A stretch of DNA of 64,000 nucleotides from Branchiostoma floridae. Lineage: Eukaryota; Chordata; Leptocardii; Amphioxiformes; Branchiostomatidae. Shown here one piece after another: positions 3,776-17,743 of the stretch (its first letter is position 1; every line of letters begins with the position of its first letter). The notes under the pieces were generated by a model. It was not told the origin of the DNA and made no database searches. It saw only the letters and a list, made by a program, of their open reading frames with translations. The position numbers and the translations under genes were made by a program. The DNA is taken from positions 15,071,199-15,135,198 of the forward strand of contig NC_049993.1 of assembly GCF_000003815.2 (NCBI RefSeq), written 5' to 3'.

Positions 3776-6700
3776 CTAAAGAGGAACACAAGACACTTCC
3801 TTCTCCTTCCCAAGCCGAGGTGTGTCCGTGAAGACCACTTCCTTGAAGGGAATGTGCTGCTCAAACAGCAACAGCTGAGGAAATGAACAGAAATATTATG
3901 TTACTAGTACATAAATAACAATCCCATTAAATTTAACACTAATGATGTCACATATGTCCTTTTCGTCAAAACGTACAAAGACCAAAATTTTGTGTTCTCA
4001 AAGAAGATATTCCCCTGTAGACAGCCTGGTGTGTGATGAACTCATTACCCCACCCTCAGGGTGCCTTCTGGAGGCCTAAAGTTGTTGTTTACAGCCAGGA
4101 GGGTCTAGTTCTGGGGGGTCGCTTCAAAATATTACGTAGTATACCTTTAAGTTTAAAGCCTACCTGATTGTCTCCCTTCTTGAGGAATGGTGCAGGGACA
4201 TATAACGTCTCCTGAGGTCCGATGTGCCAGTACCTTCCCAGGTTAAAACCATTCAAGATGGCCACACCCTTCCCCCAACCCTGGAAACAAGTAAAATATT
4301 GTCAAGGACAAAAGTTCCAGACATATGTGCAAGTTCAAACATGAAAATTTACTACTGAAACATTAAAATTACTTTTTGCAGGTGTTAATTTACCAAATTG
4401 GCATAAACATGACTTGGAAGTACACAATATCAATATCATATACTTTGTACATAGCATGTGGAAGCATGTGCAGTGACCAAAATGTATGGGTAATAGCAGA
4501 CTAAAAAGTTTTTTTTACCAAATTACTACTTTTTGAAACACCCACACACCCACCCACACACACCCACACACCCACAGACACAAAAAGACATAGAAATACA
4601 AATGTAACACACACACACATATATTCACACACAAACATGCAATGCATGTGCATACAGATACACAGACATAAAAGCATAAAGTTAACACACATGTAAAGAC
4701 AAGAAAATTACTCCAATCCCTTTGTTGGGTTTAAGTACAAGCTGACTTTTAAACCTTAACATGTTTTAAGTATAGAAAAGGGAAGTCACATCCTTTTCAC
4801 CTTCTTCATGTCCAGGAATGTGTCCTTTGGTTCTTCAGGAATGTTGAAGTTGACCAGATGGAATGCTGGGAAGGGTACTTCTGCTGCATCAGTCTGTTCC
4901 TGCCAATCTGGAGACTCAACCAACCTGGACATACAGGCCAAGGGCTCGAAAGTCATTTTGAATTTTGTGCACTGGTCAGGGGTGCCTATAAGCATTTGCA
5001 CGAACCCTGTGAGATTTGTATGAACACTATATGATACGCACAAATCACTATGCAACAGTGCACAAACCTTAGGCGATTTTCAGGAATCACTATGCGAAAA
5101 CGTACAAACCTTACATAGCAACAGAATGTAACAGACCAAATTTCCTGTTGCGGTAACATACTGTAAATGCAGAATGTTTGCGGTGGATTAATGTTTGCAG
5201 TTTTTGCGGTGAACACTTCAATGCGAACTTAAAACCACCGCGAACATTTTTCTATAATCTAAATCCACCGCGAAAAGTCATTTTCTCCCGCTACCATAAT
5301 TAAATCACCACGAACTTAAATGCATTTACAGTTACTGTTACCTTGTTTGAAATTCTGGCTTGAGCTCTAGAGGGAAGATTTCCCAGGTCTTCAGCGGGGT
5401 GGTGTTCAGCAATACTTCTCCCACAAGGCCTGGAATATAGTCAAACATGCATGAATTATTAGACTAAGTACTATATACTACATCTTGTCCAAAGTTACTT
5501 CTTAGACTTAAAAGAACTTTGTTTATAGTAAATCCAGTCATGAGATCAAGGACCTAAAGTGTAGGGGTCAACTTGCTCAGCTGGAAGTAAAATATTTACT
5601 TCTTGCTTGTAGATGACATCCTCATAGATATTATGACAAATGGAATGGCTCAAGAAAATAAACTCAAAGTTGTATCACTTTTAACGTATTTTTCTTCCAA
5701 TTTACCTATTTAATGGTCAATGTCTGGAAAATGATGACTGCAAAGATTTAAAATTTAGTGGATATTGATAAACAGGTGAGGCAGAAACTTGATAATCCTT
5801 CATAGCTGCACTTTCTAATGCAAAAAGGAGGCACAGGTTTATTAATTTGTACCTTTCCTTTGGTCCAACAGAGCATCTCCCCTGTTCACTCCAGCAACAC
5901 TTTCCAACACAAACTTCTTGACTCCATCCATGGTCTGTGCAAAGTTCACCCTGCCCTGGTTCTCAACTAAGATGTCCAGAATGTCATTCTCCTGAAATTA
6001 TAGAAGAATTGTATACATTACATTAGTTAGACGTGAAGGCCACAAATTGTAGAGCTCTAACTTTTTATTTGCAAATTTTTGCCAGTGAACCAGCGAGGAT
6101 GAGAGAGTGTCTGAGTGAATGAACTAATTTGCAATGATACAATGTACCACAAATTAAACTTATATTAAAATTTGTAGACAATTTTCATTCATTATTCACA
6201 TACAGGCACTGCTTTTCGCCCATGGAATGTCTGTTGGATTTACTCTTGAAGATGCTAGGAGGGCCCAGCAATCTTATAGGCAACGTCATGTGCAATGTTT
6301 TTTTTGTTTTGCATTTTTTCCTCTCCAAGGTATATCAACAGAAATGTAGTTTTGGGTTACACAAACTTAGTATTATATGGATGACGTCGTATATTTTTTA
6401 TGCTAATTACATTTTTCCATTCATACTGCAAAATCAAGTAAATATATAAATTTACAATACTGTACCTTCAACCCTGACATAGCAATCTCCCCAACTCTCC
6501 AGTTCAGCATACCTGACTCCTTACCATTCACAAATATCTGGGGAAGATATGAAACACTGTATATTAGATATTGAGACCATTTATCATAAGCCGTACATGA
6601 TAATATTTATAAAAGGTCACAAGCTCCACAGTATTACTGTTATTTAGAAATTATGCTATCATATTAACTGGTAATACTAAATTGGACAGCACACTGTATG

Positions 6701-9700
6701 CATGTGGGAATGTAAATATGACACACACATGTACAATTAAGGGGAAATGCATTTTCGTTTGAAAATGAATGTACACTGAAAAATCTAAAGTTAATATTTT
6801 TCAACATGCAGTGTAATGTGCACTCTTTGACTTATATAAAAAAGGGTAAATAATTCTTAAGCCAATGGCCAGAATCATGCAGATCAGGAAATTTGGTACT
6901 ACACAAATCAGTGTAATGTGCAAGTTTATAATTATTATAAACTTGCACATTACACTGACTAGTTTTATATAACAATACCCAGCAAATTGTATTGGTTAAA
7001 CTTTGACCTCTTTAAAAAACATAACAATGCTGACCTGTGCTCTGTCCCTGACATCACACTTGAGTGTGACTGAGTCCATGGCAGGAGTCTCGGACAGTTT
7101 GTGTCTGTACAGGATGTACCCGTAGGACTGTCCATTGTCATTGTTAATGGGGAGCATCTCCATGGACATCACTGTCTCACTCTTGATTGGCTGAAAAAGC
7201 AAAAATATGAGATTTGACAACCTTTCACAGATTTCAGAGCATTTGCTCTACTAATTTTTTGTACCATGTATATGCAGTGATATATGTTGATTAATTCATC
7301 AGAACTCAATGTAATCTGTGCCTATTTCATATCTTATCTGATCCTTACCCCCCTCCCCCTCATGACCTCAATGAAGAGTGGCATGCAGGCTGATTTGTGC
7401 TTCTCATGAATAAATAAATGTTCAACAAACAAAATACAAAGAGCCATCTAGAAATCTGCAAACATAACGTGAGTTCAGTCATGGACCCTGCAGCAGTATA
7501 ATCAAAAACTCTGGAAACTAACTTTACATCATAAATATACCTACCTCGCCAAGCACCTTTAAGGCATCTTCAAATGTGATGTATTTTTCAACAGGAAATG
7601 GTCCTGCAATCATAAAACCACAGATTACAGCATTTTCAAGTTCTTTGGTGAAATTGATATTTTACGAGCTGGTTTGGTTTGGTTTGATACAGATCTCCAT
7701 TAGTGACTGACATAAAATCAGTCTAGACTCTAGACGGAAGGATTTGCACCATCGCACATCGCACCATCACACGTGTGGTAGGTACTTTAATTAATGACAA
7801 ACACGGGACCTCCTCCATTTAAAGTCCTATCCGAGGGATGGCCCTAGCTCAAGCTAGGTAGTACTCATTTTCACCTGTCAGTGAGTAAAGTGAGGAAAGG
7901 CATGTTAAGTGCCTTTCCCAAGGGCACAAGATGGGTGGCACAGCAGGATTCGAACTCGAGACCTCTCAGTCCCGAAACAAACACGCTGCCGCTGTGCCAC
8001 GCGATCTTACATTGGGAATTTTCACAGGCTAAAAACTTTTTAAATATAATATAATATCAATATTAAGATATGATGTCCATCTGACTGACCATAGCTGCTC
8101 TTCTCTGTGGCAGGTGGCACTTCAGGCAATTCACTTGGAACTAGAAAAAATGGACAGAAAAAAGCAAAATCTTTATCTATATTGTATATTATGCAATGTA
8201 AGACACTCTAGTTAAGACTTTGTTGATGCAAAAGAGTTAATTAGCTCCTGTTATTTGCGCCAGATCATAAGTTGGTAACAAAGTACATTATTATCATGCA
8301 TTGTTTTTACTACTATACAATACAACCTTAGTTTTAACTGTATCATCTAATACTGCATTTTGTATTGTTTTTATTTCAAACATGCACAATGAATCTCATT
8401 TCATGACTGGAATTGATGAAGAACATGGTATGCTTAAAAACTATCTCATCTTTTTATTCTAGGACAAAGTTCAATTTATAAAGGCTCATTCAAAAAAAAA
8501 AGATCACTTGTTTTGCTACTAGTACAATTTTTTTTATTGTTAGAAGTTTCCTACCTGCTCCCTTCATTGCCAGGGTTTTCAGGAGTTCCCTTGTTTTGTA
8601 GTACTTTGGTGTTGGGTCTCCTGCCTCTGACAGTGGAGCATCATAATCTGAAATTGACATTTTGTGTTGATTATTTCAAGCAGCTTATGTATAGAATATC
8701 TACTATATTTAGTTTTATTAAATTAAATCTTGTAGGGTAATTCAGTCAGTTAGACAAAACTGATTTCCAAGGGAGCCCTGCAACAAATCAATCAACATAC
8801 ATTTGTAAACTTAATATCATAAGCCTCACACAACCTAAAAATATGAAAGAACCCACCACCTTTCTTGAAAAGAGTACTAGTAGGTACAACCCATTTTGTT
8901 TGGCTAGTATAATAACCACATTGCACTACTTGTTAGCTAACCAAAAATCATCAAACTTCAAACTTCATCATTAGTTTGAATCAAACTATGATGATGATCA
9001 GAAAGAATGTTCGCAACAGTTTTTCCTTACTTACCATAACTGGTGACATCCGGTTTGTACCCGTTGATGTAATTGGCCCCGTTCATGAAGCCAAAGTTAG
9101 TTCCTCCATGAAACATGTAGAAGTTGACAGAGGATGGGAATCTGAGAATGTCCCCTAACAGCTGTTCAAACTCTGGGGAATAAAATAAAAAAACACACAA
9201 ATGCATGTAGAAGCTTTCCTAACTATATTATCAGGCTTTTAGCCAGACATGAGTCAAGGCATCATTTGGACACGCTTTTCTTAAAATAAACAGAAATTGA
9301 CGCACTAGATGCCCTCGAACCATGTTCAACCAATATGTCTGAAATGAGGTTGATAATACTTATTTTTGTAAGCTTTCAATGACAGAGTTACTCTCACAAC
9401 TGAGGTTTGGGTACAGGTTGTTTGTGCAATCTTTCTAAGCCTTTTATTTTGACTTCAAGCATAGTAGAAAGCCCCACAATAAGGCCTAAAAAACAACTGA
9501 AGCCTAACCTCTGCTTGATATATTAATTTGCCAACATGATCTTCCAAGAGTGGACAGAAAAAGAAAGAAAAATAAAAGTTGGAGACAGTACTGAACAAAA
9601 CAAAACTTTAAGGCATTATTGGACTAGAAAACCTGTAATATCCAACAAAAAAAACTGACTCACCCAAATTTTTGACTGAACAGCACCAGTCTTTGTCAAG

Positions 9701-12700
9701 GAATGTACACTCCACTGCTGTCGTGATGTCATGTTATGCAGATAGAACACAAAGACTTCCTGCAACGTATGATCCACTGCTCACTAAGTCACATGTTTTA
9801 TCTGCATAACGTGACGTCACGATAGCTGTAGTGGATTGTTCATTTGTTCATTCATTGTGCTGTTCAGTTGAAAATTTGGGTGAGTCCAATTTTTGTGTTA
9901 TGTTGGATATTACAGTCTAACTAGTCTAATAATGATTTCTACCAACACAGATGAGCTTTTAAGTTAAAACTTTAAGGCAATAGTTTGACTCACTCTCCAC
10001 GTGCAGTTTGTGGTGGTCTCTGCCCCAGTGGTCAAACCAGCCTGACCAGAACTCCATCACCATCTGCGGCCGGTTGGGCTGGACATAGTGGACAGTAAGA
10101 AATTTTGAAGACATAAAAAAATAAAATCTCTCTAAACAAGAATAAAAGGAAAATACATTGTGTCTTCAGGCTTTTTTTCACAAGTCAATTAATTGTTTGT
10201 CTAGTTCAGCAGGCATACTATAGTTGAAATTCAAGCTAAGCCAAAGATTTTCTAAGCTTATTTTGGCATAGGTATGGAGATGGATTGCAATATGCTGTAT
10301 TTGTTCCCAAGCAAATGTCGGCCTTTCTAGTATTAAAAGTCTGCCTATCAGAACTTTTGTTTTAAACTTGAAATAAAACCAAGTTTGCTAATGATCATGT
10401 AATCAAACCATTTGATATTCTTCATTAAGGTATCATCTTAGATGTTTTGGAAGGATCTAAGTTATAGTGTTTCATGTTTTGGAAGGATCTAAGTTATAGT
10501 GTTTCATAAATCTGAAAAAAAAAACAAAAAAACTATGGACTTTTTAAAATCACTCCTGTCCTTGGTGCTGACTTTAAAGTTGACAAGCAATTTTGGTAGA
10601 GTGGAAATCCTAGACATAGAGCCAGAATTATTTACTTGAGCCAAAAAGCCATTGAATATGCACTTTACATCTATGAATATGATAGTCCCAATAACGACAG
10701 AGACAGTGGGCGTCATAGACTTCCTGCAACTTATGATCCACTGCTCACTGAGTCACGTGTGGTTTTTACATGACGTAACATCACAGAAGCAGTGGATTGT
10801 TCATTCATTGACAAATACTGGAGCTGATGAGTTAAAATTTTTGTGTTAGAAACTACAGTTCAACTTGTTCTATAATGGCTTCCACCAACACAGATGAACT
10901 TTCAAGTTATATAATGAATGAGACATGGATAAAGCTACTATCATAATTGTTTATTGTTACCTGTAGCTTCTTAAGAGCACCCAGCTGTTTCTTTGGGTTG
11001 AAGTTAAAGTTTGCAGTCATCAGCACTGTTTGGGGGAAAAACATAGAAAATTTTAGTTAAAGCAACTCAAACAATAACATAGACGTCAGTTAAGCTAGGG
11101 CCACAACAATTTAGTTCCTTTAAGTTTTTCAGGCAAAAATTGAGCAAACGGTCAAGATGAAAAAAAGAAGGCCGGAAGAACAACAAAATTGTATCTTAAG
11201 TTTATTAAAATAAAATATATCATAAAATATACTCTTTGGTGTATAAAGCAAATCTTCTTTTTGATGAGCCTTTTAAATAATTGTATTTTTAAAGTATTTG
11301 AATCAGTTACATTAGGTGATTTTGTTTCCTTGTTACAGCAGAAACTATGCCATTTAAAATATAACCATACACTACTATCAATAATAATCATTATGATATT
11401 GAAAAATGTACAGATCACCTTTTGTGAGCATATGGCAAGCTGCAGTGCCTTTTGCGCAAGTGCGACACTGGAAAGAAGCAGTGAACTATGCCACTAGGCA
11501 AGCTATACTGAGGGGTGTGCTGCACACATGTGGGTGACTATCATTGGTAAAAGATTCAGAAAGCCTACAGTAAACACACATTACTTAAATTCATCAGGCA
11601 GTCTTTGCAAATCAGGCTCTAATCAGTAATGATTCCATCATTAGGATACTCTTATTTCAATTTTTGCAATTTTACTAATCTACAAATTACATGTTAAACC
11701 CAACACAGCTAATATGAAGTTTGATTCGTAGAGTACTATCATGTATAATTCGTATTTATTAAGCAGACCTGTAACTAGCCTAAATAAGCTGATCTGAAAG
11801 CAAATGTTGTGTTTCCAGATACCCTACTAATTGTGATGACCAGGGTTCTAGCGAACATTTCTGTTCTTCTGTCTTTTGATGTAATTCTACTGCTGGGGAC
11901 GGACAAAATTTTTGCCCATTCCGTCCCATAACAGACAAAAATCGGCAGATAAAGATATTGATTATAGCAAGCATAATCTATTAGCAAAATTTGCCCCTCA
12001 AAATAAAGGAAATAGCATTTCAGAAGGCCTAGATTTCAACATTTTCCCGGGGAGCATACAATGTACCCCTGGATCCAGAAAAAGGAAAAAAATTCAGGCT
12101 GCATTTAACACTGGTGCTGACACTATCATGCATTTCCTTTGGTGTGATTTCAAAATTGTCTATCTTTGCATGGGGGATTTCTGAGGGGTTAAGATATTCA
12201 TGGTCATATTTTTTGACCTTAAAAATGTTATCAAGTACCAACTTTAGTGCATCATGTATTCGTGCTAAGCACATTATGTATATATTTGTCAAAGTACAAT
12301 TTTTAGGGGCAGGTATTAAGTTTTAAAGGCACTGAAAGAACCAGCTGAGGGCAGACCTCAATGATAGAGGACTTGGACCGTTGCGGTCAGAAAGAAAAGT
12401 ATGGGAGCTCAGGAAGCTTGCGATGAACGAGGCGAAATGGAGTTGAAGAAAGACTGAATGCAGCTGCAGAGTGTCTAAGACCACTGCAGTAGCAGAACAC
12501 AGTGGACAACTACTAACTTTTAAAAGTTGGCCACGTTCAGATGGACTGTTTCCATATTTCTTGGGAGTCCAAGGTAATAACCAAAAAAACAGGATATAAA
12601 AAAAATACCCACCAAAACTAGAAACCTTAAAAAAAAAACAGATGATGATAACCAGAAACACAGCATTTTTTTAAGGGGGTGGGGGGTGAAAGCATGCACT

Positions 12701-15700
12701 ACAACTAGGCAAGCAGGCAGGACCTTCAGCAATCACAGAACGCATCATATCAGTTTCTTTCCTACCACCAGGGATGCGGCCTTTGTTGAAGCCCCAGTCA
12801 TTGTCAGAGGTAAACAGAAGCTCACAGACACCTCTAATTTCCATTGCCTATGCATGAAGGGAATAAATTTGATAGAAGAGGAAGAATAAAATGTTTTTGA
12901 GCCTCCACCGACTTGCCACCGCCCCACCTGCTATGCTGAAAACTACAAGGATTTTTACATACAGTATATATTAGCATGGTTAGTACTTAAAAGTACAAAA
13001 ATTCAATAGTTAATTAAAATTTGATCGATCATTTCTCCAGTGTTGAACTTTATCAACTGATAGATTATTATGTATCATTGAAAAGGCCATAATCATTTAA
13101 ATGATAATTTTTTTTATAACATCTCCGTGCATTAATTTTTATCACCCCCCCATAAAAAGGTTTTAACCATACTGTACATTGCACAAAACAGCTGTAATGT
13201 GAGCAAACATATGCAATAGATTACATGGAATTTAAAACAAAAAATAGATACCAATCAAAAATCACATTGTTCGGTATACAATACCATCATGTAAGTGTGA
13301 AGTCAACACAATACGTCCCAGCTTGCTGACCACATAGATTTTGTAATGAAGGCAATATTTAGTCAGGGAAAACTATTTTTTCTCCCTGTTGAGGGCAATA
13401 AAGAAGCTTTTCAATCTTGATATGATAATGTAACACAATTGAATGATAAAGTTTGGATGGAGATATGATCAACCAAAAATTGACTCATTACAGATATAGT
13501 TCCTACCCCCTGGAATGCAACCCCTCTCCAATCTTTCAATCTGTCCTCCATCAGAAGTCAGTAGTAGTTCTTCGATACCTCTTTTCTGGATAGCCTAGAC
13601 ACACAAGCACGTATGGAAAGAAAAGATCTGGAACATTATCAAGCTGTACATCAACTACATCTTACTCTTGCACAAAATGTGGCATCCATGGGCAGAAATA
13701 CCTAGTATCCATACACTGCTGGGTCTTCTGGACTGTGTGGTAAATATTATATAACCGAATACAACAGGGGGTACTGTAAATGCAGAAATGTTCGTGGTGG
13801 TTTTATGTTCATGGTTTTTACAGTGACAGCAAACTTAAGACCAGTCCAGAACACCTGTATGAAATGTTATTGCGGCCCAGGAATGACATTAGAAAATTAT
13901 CATTTTCAGGCACTAAGATCCTACAACAAAGATGTGTACTGCTCAAGTACAATTTTTTGAGACCCTAATTTGACAATTATTGTCAGTGTCTTCTCACCTG
14001 TTTTACTGCAGTCAGATATTTGTCATCTCTAGCGTAGGAACCGTACTCGTTCTCCACCTGCATGGCGATGATTGGCCCGCCTTCCTTGTACTGCGGAGAG
14101 GTGACAATTCAGAAATACCTGGGTTAAATCAGAATTGCATTGATCCAACATACTTTGGCATTGCATGGTGCAATCGGTATGGTACCAGTGTTGGACCCAG
14201 ACCCCAGAGGTAACGGGTCTGAAACTGCTGAGTTGTCCCAAAGTTGTACCCTTGGGAAGTGCACTTTACATGACTTTCCTCACTTCACTCAGGTAAAAAA
14301 GAGGACCTAGCTTTGATTAGGACCGTCTTTTAGATAGGACGTTAAGTGGAGGTCTGGTGTCTGAGATGACCCACACCTCGAGCACATTAAAGATCCAACC
14401 ACACTTATCGAAAAAAGTATGGGTCCTTCCCAGTGTGAGTGGTTCAAAACGTACAGTCCCCAGGCCGCACCTGAGGTAATTACTGTCATATTGAGGTCTC
14501 TTGAGCAGTGGCAAATGGCAGCTCGCTCCAGACCATTGCAATTTAACTTGCCCATTTTAAGCTCCTTGCACTTCAGCCCCTTGCTGCAAGGAGAAAATTC
14601 CCACCCACGGAAAAATACATTGTCAAGCAGCTGCCAGCTTGCTGTATTTACTAAATACAGCATAGTCCTACTTCTAGTCCTAGGTAGGAGTGATTGATTA
14701 GTACTAGGAATCACAAGAGAAACGCATTAGAAACACAGTCTCTGATAATTCCCAATGCAGAAAAAATTGATTCATTCTGTATTCTGAAAATCAAATATTA
14801 GCAACAATTTTGTAACAGTTACTGTAGTACAAGAATACATTATATACAGTGCCATGATAACCACTATACAGATATACAACATTTACAGCAGGGATCGAAA
14901 TACTTTTTTTCTGTATACCTGCAACGGTGCAGGTAACATTAAAAAATTATCTGCACATGACAAAATTTACCAGCACCACTCTACATTTAGTAAGTATGAT
15001 TAAGAAAATTGTTCAGGAACCATTGCTACGTTTTCTTAAATACATTTTTTTACTATGTAGGCGGTACCAGTCAATGCAGCTAGTAACAATCCATATACAC
15101 CTACACTACATCATAGTTACTTTATGTATAAAACGCAGTACATGGACCAGTGCAGGTTAGGTGCAGGTAGACACCAGAAATACCTGCACAGCTCCAATTT
15201 TACCTGCACTAACCTGAATATGCAGGTGGTATTTCAAGCCCTGTATAGTATCGTCAAACTAAAATTAATGACATTAACGTTACCTGGAATGGTTTGACGA
15301 TAGGTAAGAGGGCATCGAAGAACCGTTCCACTGCCTCCATGTAGGGTTGGTAGGTAGTGCGGACCTGCATGTTTGGGTCTCTTAGCAACCAGCTGATTGT
15401 GTACATGAAAAAAAAAAACATGAAATGAGCAAAACACTAATTTTAGGAAAATCCCATTTATTTCCTTGGTTTATGAAAACCCAAAAACCCACACACTGAC
15501 AGAACATTAAACTAACCTCCATTTTTCATGAAGGTAACAAAAAATGAATCAGTCAGAATGCTGACATGCCAGTGTGATTTGCATATAGATGACAAAGTTC
15601 CTACAGGAATTGCCAATAATTTATTCACATTTGGATAGTTGAACCAACCTACCTTGGCAAACCCCCATAGTCCCATTCAGCACATATGTACGGCCCAGGA

Positions 15701-17743
15701 CGAAAGATGACCCATAGACCAAGGTTTGCTGCTTCCCGCAGGTAGGCCCTGAAACATACAGGAAGACAGTTCTCACAAAGCTCAGTCATACAGTAGACAC
15801 GAACCGGAACACTTTTCTATTGTGACTCCAATGTATGACTGAAGGATACACATGTGAAAACCAAAGGAAAACATAGCTAATATCCATGACCACTTGCTCC
15901 ACCCACAGTAACACAAGGACCTGGCAGGCTGCTGTCTGCTATGCTCTCCTCCTATAGAAGTCATTGATTACCATGAAACTCATGAGAAACACATTGGAAT
16001 AATTATTACAGTGTCTATTAGGCAATAAGGAAACCTTTCAGATATATATTCTCCATTTTGCAAGCATTAGGAACCCTCTAAGAAGGGAAAAAGGGAAGAT
16101 ACATACACACAGGAGATATCTCCTCTTCTGCTGCTTTCTCCAGTGTTTCCACTAGTTTTGACTACTATCTAGACTAAGCTTTGGAAGGGAGATCTTCCCT
16201 TACTGCAAACATTACATTTTTCTTCATCATGGCTAAATTTCTTGATGCATATAATATGTAGGATTAAAAATTATGGGTACCAAGCAAATTTATAAGAGTT
16301 GATGCCAACAAGTAGATCAGGTATGGAAATATGTGTCCTCTTGTTATCAATGCAGGGCTTGAAATACTTTTTTCTGCATACCTGCACTGGTGCAGGTAAC
16401 ATTGAAAATTACCTGCACTAGACAATTTTTACATGCATCACTCTTAATTTAGGAAGTATGGATCATACTAAAACTGTTCAGGAATCATTGCTATTCTATA
16501 CTTTATAGGTGGTAACAGTCAATGCAGCTAATAACAATCCACATACACCTACATCATAGGACATTTTATGTATAAAACCCAGTAAATGGACCAGTGCAGG
16601 TTAGGTGCAGGTAGACACCAGAAATACCTGCACAGCTCCAATTTCACCTGCACTAACCTGCATATGCAGGTGGTATTTCGAGCCCTGCAATGTGACCAGC
16701 AAAGCTGGAAACTTACGCAATGTCCAGCATGCCTGTGAAGTCAAACTTGCCCTTTTCTGGCTCGTGAAGGTTCCAGCACACGTAGCTGCATCAAACAGAA
16801 ACAGTAGCATTAAAAAGTTTATCTAAGATTTAAAATGGTCTAAACCTTCTTTTTAGCATAATAGTATATGGTAATCTATAAAAATTTAATATATGAAGAA
16901 AGTACATGTACACACTTACACATAAAGTTAATATAATACACCAAGCTAATGCAATGGCATGAGGAATCACATACTGTCACTACTAAGTATGTGGTTTATA
17001 AGCAAAAGTTAAAGATTAACAGTTATACTGTCAACAAAGGTTGCGTTGTTACGTTTCAAGAGTGTTGAGTCCGCAGGCTTTCAACTTCAGCATCCTGTCA
17101 CGCCAGTATTCTCTGGGGACCCTGAAGAAAAAAAAGAAAAGAATAATGTAGCATCACACTTACCTGTTGTACTTTTACCAATTTATCTAATTTAGGGGGA
17201 CTGGTCTGCATGACAGTGTGTGCACATGTGTGTGGCAGCATTCTTATTTATTTCTGTATGTATGCAAGGAGCTTTTATCAGGAGGATAAAAGCTCCTTGA
17301 TGTATGTGTGTCTGTGTCTGTACATGGACAAAAAGGGTGTCTGTACGGTATGTATGTGTATATGTATGTGTTTTTGTATGTTTGTTTGTATGCATGTGTG
17401 CATGCAAGTGAGTGTATATATTTGTGTCTGTGTGTTTCTGACTTTCTCTGTGTGTGTGTGTGTGCATGTCTGTGTGTGTGTCGCCAAACTCAGCCAACTT
17501 TGTTTGTACCACACACATGTGTTCCAAAGCAGCATGGGTAAAGGGGTGTCAAGACTGCTATATCTTATGACTCCTTTTTATACTTGATTCGATTCACAAC
17601 CAGCAATAATATATAATTAATAATATAATGTTTTACCTGAAATAGTGGATCGCTCCGCTAAGTATCTGTACAGGTTTCCCATCCAGAGTAAAGTTCTCCC
17701 CCTCCGCGACAAGTCCGGTTCTTTCCGTTCCTTCCGTAGCCAT
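3776..17743 (-). CDS. GLB1L2: Beta-galactosidase-1-like protein (GH35, GLB1L2/L3 type), complete
   Basis: Glycoside hydrolase family 35, expected to remove terminal beta-galactose. I joined 20 exons on the minus strand with matching phases: 17743-17637, 17121-17053, 16785-16717, 15748-15653, 15392-15284, 14090-13998, exon 7 (13594-13507 or 12847-12766), 11025-10961, 10078-9994, 9172-9035, 8647-8555, 8140-8090, 7603-7545, 7190-7035, 6537-6466, 5991-5853, 5429-5342, 4924-4801, 4280-4164, 3874-3776. All introns are GT..AG. The product is 638 or 636 aa, close to human GLB1L2. Visible motifs: [20 protein letters not shown] (exons 4-5), QVENEYGSY with acid/base Glu165 (exon 6), [13 protein letters not shown] with nucleophile Glu241 (exon 9), [14 protein letters not shown] (exon 10) and the C-terminal [13 protein letters not shown] (exon 19). 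The start ATG is followed directly by conserved family sequence. No signal peptide is seen, unlike secreted or lysosomal relatives. GLB1L2 versus L3 cannot be resolved, so the symbol marks the family. Confidence 0.93.
4540..4690. repeat. CA-rich imperfect microsatellite
   Basis: Runs of ACACAC/CCCACA in intron 18 of the GH35 gene. Open frames here are low-complexity and not coding. Confidence 0.7.
5158..5334. mobile_element. Foldback MITE, ACTGTAAATGCAGAA family, copy 1
   Basis: Begins TACTGTAAATGCAGAATGTT and ends with the inverse TGCATTTACAGTTACTG. The interior repeats GCGGTGG/CCACCGCGAAC on both strands. It sits in intron 17 of the GH35 gene. Related copies are at about 13772 and 45905-46097. 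Confidence 0.6.
6908..6958. repeat. Perfect 25-bp inverted repeat
   Basis: Arms of 25 bp beginning TCAGTGTAATGTGCAAGTTT, separated by one base, in intron 14 of the GH35 gene. It could form a cruciform or an RNA hairpin. A related half-site (CAGTGTAATGTGCAC) lies near 6810. Confidence 0.8.
7790..8007 (-). mobile_element. tRNA-derived SINE, family copy 1
   Basis: The minus strand has a tRNA-like head (GTGGCACAGCGGCAGCG as box A region, GAGTTCGAATCCTG as box B), then the shared core with CTTGGGAAAGGCACTTAACA and a CTTTCCTCACTTTACTCA motif. It sits in GH35 intron 12. Other copies with the same core: 14205, 24755 and 34025 (plus), 41130 and 56715 (minus). Confidence 0.65.
9659..9890. mobile_element. 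Foldback repeat, family of three
   Basis: Begins ACTCACCCAAATTTTTGACT and ends with the inverse AAAATTTGGGTGAGT, with inner arms around TGACGTCACG and ATCTGCATAAC. Partial relatives at 10716-10910 and 33547-33765 share the ATGATCCACTGCT and CAACACAGATGA segments. Copies lie in introns of both minus-strand genes. Confidence 0.6.
9994..10078 (-). CDS. GLB1L2: GLB1L2-like exon 9, nucleophile exon
   Basis: 85 bp encoding [19 protein letters not shown] and a following HH-rich stretch. The Glu of MEFW (residue 241 with exon 7B, 239 with 7A) matches the GH35 nucleophile position. Both catalytic glutamates are therefore intact. Confidence 0.92.
10716..10910. repeat. Second copy of the ATGATCCACTGCT repeat
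   Basis: Shares the right half of the foldback at 9659-9890, about 800 bp away in the adjacent intron 8, ending in the same CAACACAGATGAACTTTCAA block. Confidence 0.55.
12766..12847 (-). CDS. GLB1L2: GLB1L2-like alternative exon 7A (downstream copy)
   Basis: 82 bp, acceptor CATAG|GCAATGG, donor G|GTAGG. It encodes 27 residues beginning [17 protein letters not shown] and ending NKGRIPG, plus one base that joins exon 8 (VLMTANF). It occupies the same place in the protein as exon 7B, and the two align along their full length. The TSDN version of the loop resembles the GLB1L2/L3 subgroup. At 3n+1 bases it can replace 7B but cannot be added to it. Confidence 0.85.
13507..13594 (-). CDS. GLB1L2: GLB1L2-like alternative exon 7B (upstream copy)
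   Basis: 88 bp, acceptor CTAG|GCTATCC, donor G|GTAGG. It encodes 29 residues beginning [17 protein letters not shown] and ending RGCIPG, plus one base that joins exon 8. Same phases and protein position as exon 7A, 659 bp further upstream in the transcript. The TSDG version of the loop is closer to the GLB1-type sequence. Joining 7B to 7A would shift the frame and reach TAG after four codons; skipping both gives TGC TGA at the start of exon 8. Confidence 0.85.
13998..14090 (-). CDS. GLB1L2: GLB1L2-like exon 6, acid/base catalytic exon
   Basis: 31 codons, phase 0 at both ends. Contains QVENEYGSY; the Glu of NEYG (residue 165) is the GH35 acid/base by family knowledge. It lies directly upstream of the duplicated exon 7 pair. 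Confidence 0.92.
14205..14450 (+). mobile_element. SINE family copy 2
   Basis: Core ACCCTTGGGAAGTGCACTTT and CTTTCCTCACTTCACTCAGG, followed by the family tail with ACACTTATCGAAAAAAG. Located in GH35 intron 5. Confidence 0.6.
14889..15243 (+). mobile_element. CCTGCA-rich inverted-end element, copy 1
   Basis: Ends read CAGGGATCGAAATAC and GTATTTCAAGCCCTG, imperfect inverted repeats. The interior is full of ACCTGCAC/GTGCAGGT on both strands. No coding capacity. Copies 2 and 3 are at 16353 and 22278. Confidence 0.65.
15779..16042. repeat. Dispersed repeat, copy 1
   Basis: Shares CTCAGTCATACAGTA, ACTCCAATGTATGACTGAAG, AGCAGACAGCAGCC-type and ACCATGAAACTCATGAGAAA blocks with an inverted copy at 26688-26945. 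It sits in GH35 intron 3. Confidence 0.6.
16353..16688 (+). mobile_element. CCTGCA-rich inverted-end element, copy 2
   Basis: Ends CAGGGCTTGAAATAC and GTATTTCGAGCCCTG. Same interior order as copy 1 (GTGCAGGTTAGGTGCAGGTA). The right end is about 30 bp from the exon 3 donor at 16716. Confidence 0.7.
17190..17490. repeat. TG-rich microsatellite
   Basis: Degenerate (TG)n/TATG tract in GH35 intron 1. All open frames are Cys/Val or His/Thr low-complexity artefacts. Confidence 0.75.

Follow-up and report, generated by a model that had tools for sequence, protein, structure and literature searches.

Two homologous, frame-locked copies of exon 7 in a lancelet GH35 gene: a probable mutually exclusive pair

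The GH35 locus and its duplicated exon

The window, a stretch of 64,000 nucleotides of contig C15 of the lancelet genome, contains a complete GH35 gene on its minus strand (3776..17743). The gene model was assembled from AG/GT borders, running from 17743 to 3776, and comprises 20 exon positions, or 21 exons when both copies of exon 7 are counted; all its borders are GT-AG. With either copy, 7A or 7B, the reading frame is open to the natural stop, giving 636 codons for the 7A form and 638 for the 7B form. The product scores far above the PF01301 cut-off of 27 bits (404.1 bits for the 7B form, 400.3 for the 7A form) and belongs to GH35 by this measure. The beta-domains PF21317 and PF21467 are likewise above their cut-offs, and GH42 (PF02449) is also above its own, weakly, at 34-35 bits. 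Searching the whole genome (513 Mb in 431 contigs) with PF01301 gave 14 matches, which lie on three contigs, C15, C1 and C10. The window gene may belong to the GLB1L2/GLB1L3 group. No signal peptide is evident by eye at the predicted N-terminus (first exon, window 17743), and an alternative first exon upstream of this position is possible.

Several repeats lie in and near the gene. Introns 5 and 3 (window 15245-14900 and 16690-16360, minus strand) each hold one copy of a dispersed, ACCTGCA-rich element of ~340 bp, a pair recognized by eye, and the copy in intron 5 has at least 39 relatives across the genome at 83-86% identity (of 2563 candidates, 40 were scored). At window 19965-19115, immediately upstream of the gene, an inverted repeat with long arms (taccaagtaataccacgtaatacc... 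and its complement) can be seen by eye, and looks like a foldback transposable element. Introns 8 and 9 (window 10910-10720 and 9965-9640, minus strand) have in common a repeated stretch, aaagctcatctgtgttggt... atgaacaatccact..., also recognized by eye.

The duplicated exon sits between the two catalytic residues. Exon 6 (13998..14090, minus strand) encodes VENEYG with the acid/base Glu and ends in phase 0, exon 8 (10961..11025, minus strand) starts in phase 1, and exon 9 (9994..10078, minus strand) encodes MEFW with the predicted nucleophile Glu. Between exons 6 and 8 lie 7B (13507..13594, minus strand; 88 nt encoding 29 residues, acceptor gtctag/, donor ggg/gtagga) and 7A (12766..12847, minus strand; 82 nt encoding 27 residues, acceptor gcatag/, donor gtg/gtagga), separated by 659 nt. 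Both exons are entered in phase 0 and left in phase 1, and their peptides align over the full length with 45% identity and a two-residue gap (tblastn E 0.003-0.004). The coordinates, AG/GT borders and 3n+1 lengths given for the two exons in an earlier note on this DNA were all recovered here, and its description of them as homologous, equal in phase and placed between the same neighbours is confirmed by the alignment and the gene model.

Alignment of the gene product to human GLB1 (3thc) identifies both the acid/base Asn-Glu of VENEYG and the nucleophile Glu of MEFW, whose catalytic roles we take from the cited sections of PMC6566704. In GLB1, these are Glu188 and Glu268, carried by strands 4 and 7 in enzymes of the GH-A clan (PMC6566704, same sections). 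When the alignment is anchored on Glu188, the exon 7 segment corresponds to GLB1 residues about 206-235. The pocket residues named in those sections, a list that may be incomplete, are Tyr83, Cys127, Ala128, Glu129, Asn187, Glu188, Glu268, Tyr270 and Tyr306, and all nine are numbered outside this range. The segment had been described as an active-site loop between the acid/base and nucleophile residues; the location between them holds, but "active-site" is too strong a term for a segment that contains none of the residues named in the cited sections. Judging from the alignment and from the usual order of barrel strands, the segment would be strand beta5 with the loop that follows, and it may shape the rim or the aglycone side of the pocket. 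Catalysis should be kept in both forms, and any difference between them would concern stability, loop packing or the aglycone side.

The consequences for the reading frame are exact. The combinations 6-7B-8 and 6-7A-8 are each open through the entire gene model, but since the length of exon 7 is no multiple of three, including both copies or neither leads to an early stop. Double inclusion (6-7B-7A-8) reads GGC AAT GGA AAT and then TAG, which is the stop after four codons that had been predicted. Skipping both copies does produce the predicted TGA, although not at once, as the 6-8 junction reads TGC TGA and one codon precedes the stop. Either exon alone thus keeps the frame, and no functional mRNA can contain both. 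The frame alone does not show whether 7A and 7B are both used. Moreover, equal phases and 3n+1 lengths are what duplication yields whenever the exon is entered in phase 0 and left in phase 1, and they are therefore no independent evidence of regulation.

Further copies of the segment were sought with a profile run against six-frame fragments of at least 15 residues between stops, covering 14.3 kb of the window gene and 17 kb around a paralog on C1. The two exons scored 43 and 41 bits and exon 7 of the C1 paralog 36, with the next best fragment at 5.8; as the profile contained these three sequences, their own matches are given by construction, and the informative part is that there were no others. 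When the profile was built from 80 bacterial relatives only, 7A scored 19.7 bits, 7B 23.1 and the C1 paralog 25.8. No intronic copies of the gene's other exons were found at E 0.05 on the gene's strand; the single further match at this threshold, for exon 19 with E 0.026, is to the other strand. Isolated exon 7 peptides of 28-30 residues had no match in Pfam, as expected at such length, and comparison of the duplicated flanks gave only repeats of 14-18 nt that appear chance-like.

Coding constraint and relation to other GH35 sequences

The differences between 7A and 7B are concentrated at third codon positions. Over the 27 aligned codons, positions 1, 2 and 3 differ in 10, 6 and 22 cases (chi-square p 3.3e-5; positions 1 and 2 together against position 3, Fisher p 1.3e-5). 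Synonymous sites are saturated, such that the Nei-Gojobori method yields no finite value, and dN is 0.46. Both copies have a dN of 0.43 to exon 7 of the C1 paralog, compared with 0.47 between the exons 6 of the two genes. In a three-way comparison of the exon 7 sequences, 11 sites are unique to 7A, 12 to 7B and 12 to the C1 paralog, with 13 sites different in all three; the counts are even enough that neither copy is conspicuous for unconstrained change. Measured in this way, 7A and 7B have each evolved no faster than an ordinary coding exon. Alleles were rejected as an explanation of the pair, the two copies being too diverged (p-distance 0.47).

Neutral evolution was simulated from 7A, 7B or the paralog as starting sequences, in four designs of 4000 runs each that used substitutions only, a choice that favours the null. 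A run was counted as a success if it retained an open frame scoring as observed against the profile of 80 bacterial relatives. At the full observed divergence there was no success among the 4000 runs of any design, and at half the divergence, a case that matters because one branch could be neutral and the other not, there were 0, 8, 11 and 40. Saturated synonymous sites together with a conserved protein mean that 7A and 7B have been in use over most of the time since they arose, and both have long been under selection as GH35 coding sequence. Unconstrained evolution of one copy, which the earlier note had named as grounds for giving up its reading, is not what the codon-position skew, the dN values and the simulation reveal. 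These tests cover the history of the copies, and one that had lost its use only recently would pass them all.

The relatives used for comparison are the best 80 from a scan of bacterial and archaeal genomes; they are the closest sequences, many of them from Paenibacillus by title, and not a sample of all GH35. In the queries and rows used for this alignment and for the structure matches below, Glu stands for Lys at the exon 9/10 junction, which is outside exon 7 and equal in both forms. The segment is 29 residues long, as in 7B, in 78 of the 80 relatives and 30 residues in the other two, compared with 27 in 7A. The bacterial majority residue is matched at 13 positions by each copy (out of 29 in 7B and 27 in 7A). 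Five positions are invariant in all 80 relatives, of which four are kept in both copies and all five in 7B. At a position that is G in all 80 relatives, 7A has N, and its loop is short by two residues; 7B departs with an L from the F of 79 of the 80. Residues that occur in none of the 80 make up 8 of 29 in 7B and 6 of 27 in 7A, compared with 4/31, 2/37, 4/31, 3/22 and 5/28 in exons 4, 5, 6, 8 and 9, respectively, and the constraint on the pair may be a little looser than on its neighbours.

Both forms score strongly against solved GH35 enzymes, and which of the two scores higher depends on the structure. The best match, 4mad, scores 367.7 bits with the 7B form and 354.7 with the 7A form, and human GLB1 (3thc) 274.4 and 265.2, whereas the 7A form is slightly higher for 4e8c (274.2 vs 272.1), 3d3a (256.5 vs 255) and 6eon (254.2 vs 252.7). 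It had been suggested that the two copies represent a GLB1 type with TSDG and a GLB1L2/L3 type with TSDN. This does not hold: the G after TSD is found in all 80 of the best bacterial relatives and in the C1 paralog. In the latter, moreover, TSDG is combined with the short loop, so the length of the loop is not tied to the letter. Human GLB1L2 presumably has TSDN with a short loop. The distinction appears to reduce to 7B as the form nearer to bacterial GH35 and 7A as the more derived one.

The C1 paralog has the same intron positions and phases around its exon 7 (L010:2027-2108) as the window gene, and this exon shares its borders and its length of 82 nt with 7A. It differs in being the only copy detected: no second or decayed exon 7 was found with the profile over the 17 kb around the paralog. 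In the C10 paralog, the region expected to hold the segment is mostly a run of N.

The C10 paralog, which is GLB1-like, shows a peculiarity of its own. At L012:1-615 (about 7233001-7233615), an exon piece, LKCGTIDGLYTTVDFGPG, forms, together with its donor, a tandem array whose unit measures about 78 bp, its core occurring 8 times in 640 bases beside a long run of N. The repeated piece sits just after the same loop, and the array resembles a minisatellite built from the end of an exon.

Splicing signals and explanations of the pair

Splice sites were scored with a small matrix built from other exons of the same gene. Donor and acceptor of 7B both rank 12th of 20 in the gene, and those of 7A rank 16th and 17th of 20, respectively. 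The sites of 7A are somewhat weaker, but both pairs fall within the gene's own range and look usable. The intronic gtagga is common to the donors of both copies. The gap of 659 nt speaks against simple steric crowding as a cause of exclusion, and the GT-AG sites throughout speak against incompatibility of U2 and U12 sites.

Intronic complementarity that could enforce exclusion was a further candidate. A G-rich stretch upstream of 7A (approximately 12886..12948, minus strand) and a downstream partner that includes a C-rich run (approximately 12675..12746, minus strand) are candidates for a pairing that could loop 7A out. At -56.1 kcal/mol, this pairing between introns 7 and 8 is the strongest around any of the 19 internal exons, the other 18 ranging from -17.6 to -40.4 kcal/mol, although an equally strong pairing arose in 38 of 1000 local shuffles and at 67 of 2047 positions across the window. 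Long duplexes of introns 6, 7 and 8 (the first 800-900 nt of intron 8) are unremarkable, with 8, 40 and 5 of 60 shuffles as strong. In 40-nt windows, intron pairs 6-7 and 6-8 are unexceptional (equalled in strength by 14 and 7 of 24 shuffles), and the pair 7-8 alone stood out (0 of 24). Of possible docking and selector pairings among introns 6, 7 and 8, this leaves the one around 7A, a weak signal. A TGCATG hexamer starts 68 nt into the intron downstream of 7A; we take it to be of the Rbfox type, which would make it a candidate for a regulatory role.

We consider it likely that 7A and 7B result from an old tandem exon duplication in the GH35 gene and have been kept as a mutually exclusive pair. 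Both exons would be spliced in vivo, each mature mRNA having exon 6 joined to either 7A or 7B, and then exon 8. Inclusion of both or neither would place an early stop in an mRNA that still has twelve junctions beyond exon 8, so that NMD should destroy it, and double-included or skipped products would be cleared in this way. The two proteins would have the same catalytic residues and differ in strand beta5 and the following loop, which could tune stability or aglycone fit. Exclusion would be enforced at least by the frame, probably with NMD removing the wrong products. The mutually exclusive use described in the earlier note has good support from the frame logic and from the coding constraint on the two copies, and from these we infer the splicing itself. 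Points against this reading are the wide gap between ordinary GT-AG sites, the weak intronic complementarity, the single exon 7 detected in the C1 paralog, the departures of 7A and 7B from residues shared by all or nearly all of the bacterial relatives, and the possibly looser constraint on the pair.

It is unlikely, in our judgement, that one copy, more probably 7A, has recently lost its use, leaving a gene that makes one protein and an intact-looking young relic. The lower donor and acceptor scores of 7A (ranks 16 and 17 of 20) and its poorer fit to the bacterial profile (19.7 vs 23.1 bits) would agree with such a loss. However, both copies combine saturated synonymous sites with a conserved protein, their unique sites are about equal in number (11 in 7A, 12 in 7B), and the 82 nt of 7A are exactly the length of the only exon 7 detected in the C1 paralog. 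Less probable again is a use of the pair to set dose, in which regulated double inclusion or skipping sends mRNA to decay and the protein difference is minor. Double inclusion and skipping do both give early stops, and in the cited sections of PMC2631023 human GLB1 transcripts otherwise degraded by NMD are revealed by cycloheximide; yet a pure poison exon needs no conserved protein, and both copies keep the GH35 signature. It is very unlikely, finally, that an error of assembly placed the second exon here from a different locus or haplotype. The genome consists of 431 contigs and contains stretches of N, one of them in the C10 paralog, but the DNA of 7B was found once in the genome, as was the DNA upstream of 7A, and a p-distance of 0.47 is too large for alleles. 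Genome protein searches with either copy gave no closer source, although they are insensitive, the 7A search not having listed 7B, and further distant copies elsewhere in the genome may have escaped them.

Comparable systems and implications

Mutually exclusive duplicate exons are already well known as a kind, and a case in GH35 would be the addition. No such pair in GH35 was found in the open-licence literature, judged mostly by title and the start of the abstract. For human genes, 236 events of tandem duplicated exon substitution in 214 genes are given in the cited sections of PMC9741552. As with 7A and 7B, these are homologous neighbouring exons used singly, in which key structural and functional residues are kept; that the changed residues are enriched at the surface and that most pairs are old we likewise count as alike (same sections). 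The splicing of the human set is annotated (same sections), whereas for the lancelet pair it is deduced. The main text of PMC9741552 contains no occurrence of GLB1 or hydrolase.

For COE, a published rule states that once an asymmetric exon is duplicated, splicing has to take one copy or the other (PMC2394523, in the sections cited here). The duplicated exon E13 of COE/EBF resembles the lancelet pair in being asymmetric and bound by the frame to the use of one copy or the other; it differs in that vertebrates include both copies, a phase-0 intron having been re-established by a new donor, whereas 7A and 7B together break the frame (PMC2394523, same sections). The alpha/beta pair of JNK is alike in that the catalytic domain of an enzyme swaps a short segment through mutually exclusive exons, but JNK is a kinase and no glycoside hydrolase, and its isoforms are known (cited part of PMC8586503). 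Closest by family is human GLB1, which gives beta-galactosidase and elastin-binding protein through alternative splicing within a gene for a GH35 catalytic domain, and some of the products undergo NMD; there, exons 3, 4 and 6 are skipped and exon 5 is read in another frame (cited part of PMC2631023). That part mentions mutually exclusive exons as a general mechanism only. Mutually exclusive exons of Fgfr are the subject in the cited part of a paper on Esrp, where the word galactosidase does not occur (PMC5703972), and mouse Glb1l3 has 21 exons according to a paper whose cited part is without the word "splice" (PMC3103743).

There is a more far-reaching reading, which we regard as speculative and on balance rather doubtful: that the pair predates the split between the window gene and its paralog, and perhaps even the chordates, and that two loop types have been retained as a splice choice, yielding two enzymes that differ in aglycone preference. 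The long-loop type would be 7B, as in bacteria and GLB1, and the short-loop type 7A, as in the C1 paralog with its single exon 7. The unique-site counts of 11, 12 and 12 favour no order of gene and exon duplication. If this reading were true, one gene would still carry both loop types where other lineages fixed a single one, and two GH35 enzymes would come from one gene by a swap of barrel strand 5 and its loop.

An old tandem duplication kept for mutually exclusive use would be a moderate surprise, as the wider kind is known, and its interest would come from the enzyme family and the age of the pair. If both forms are made, the gene would amount to an experiment of nature on a glycosidase barrel, with one strand-loop unit swapped and the catalytic residues left in place, and two strand-loop solutions would have coexisted in one gene for a very long time.
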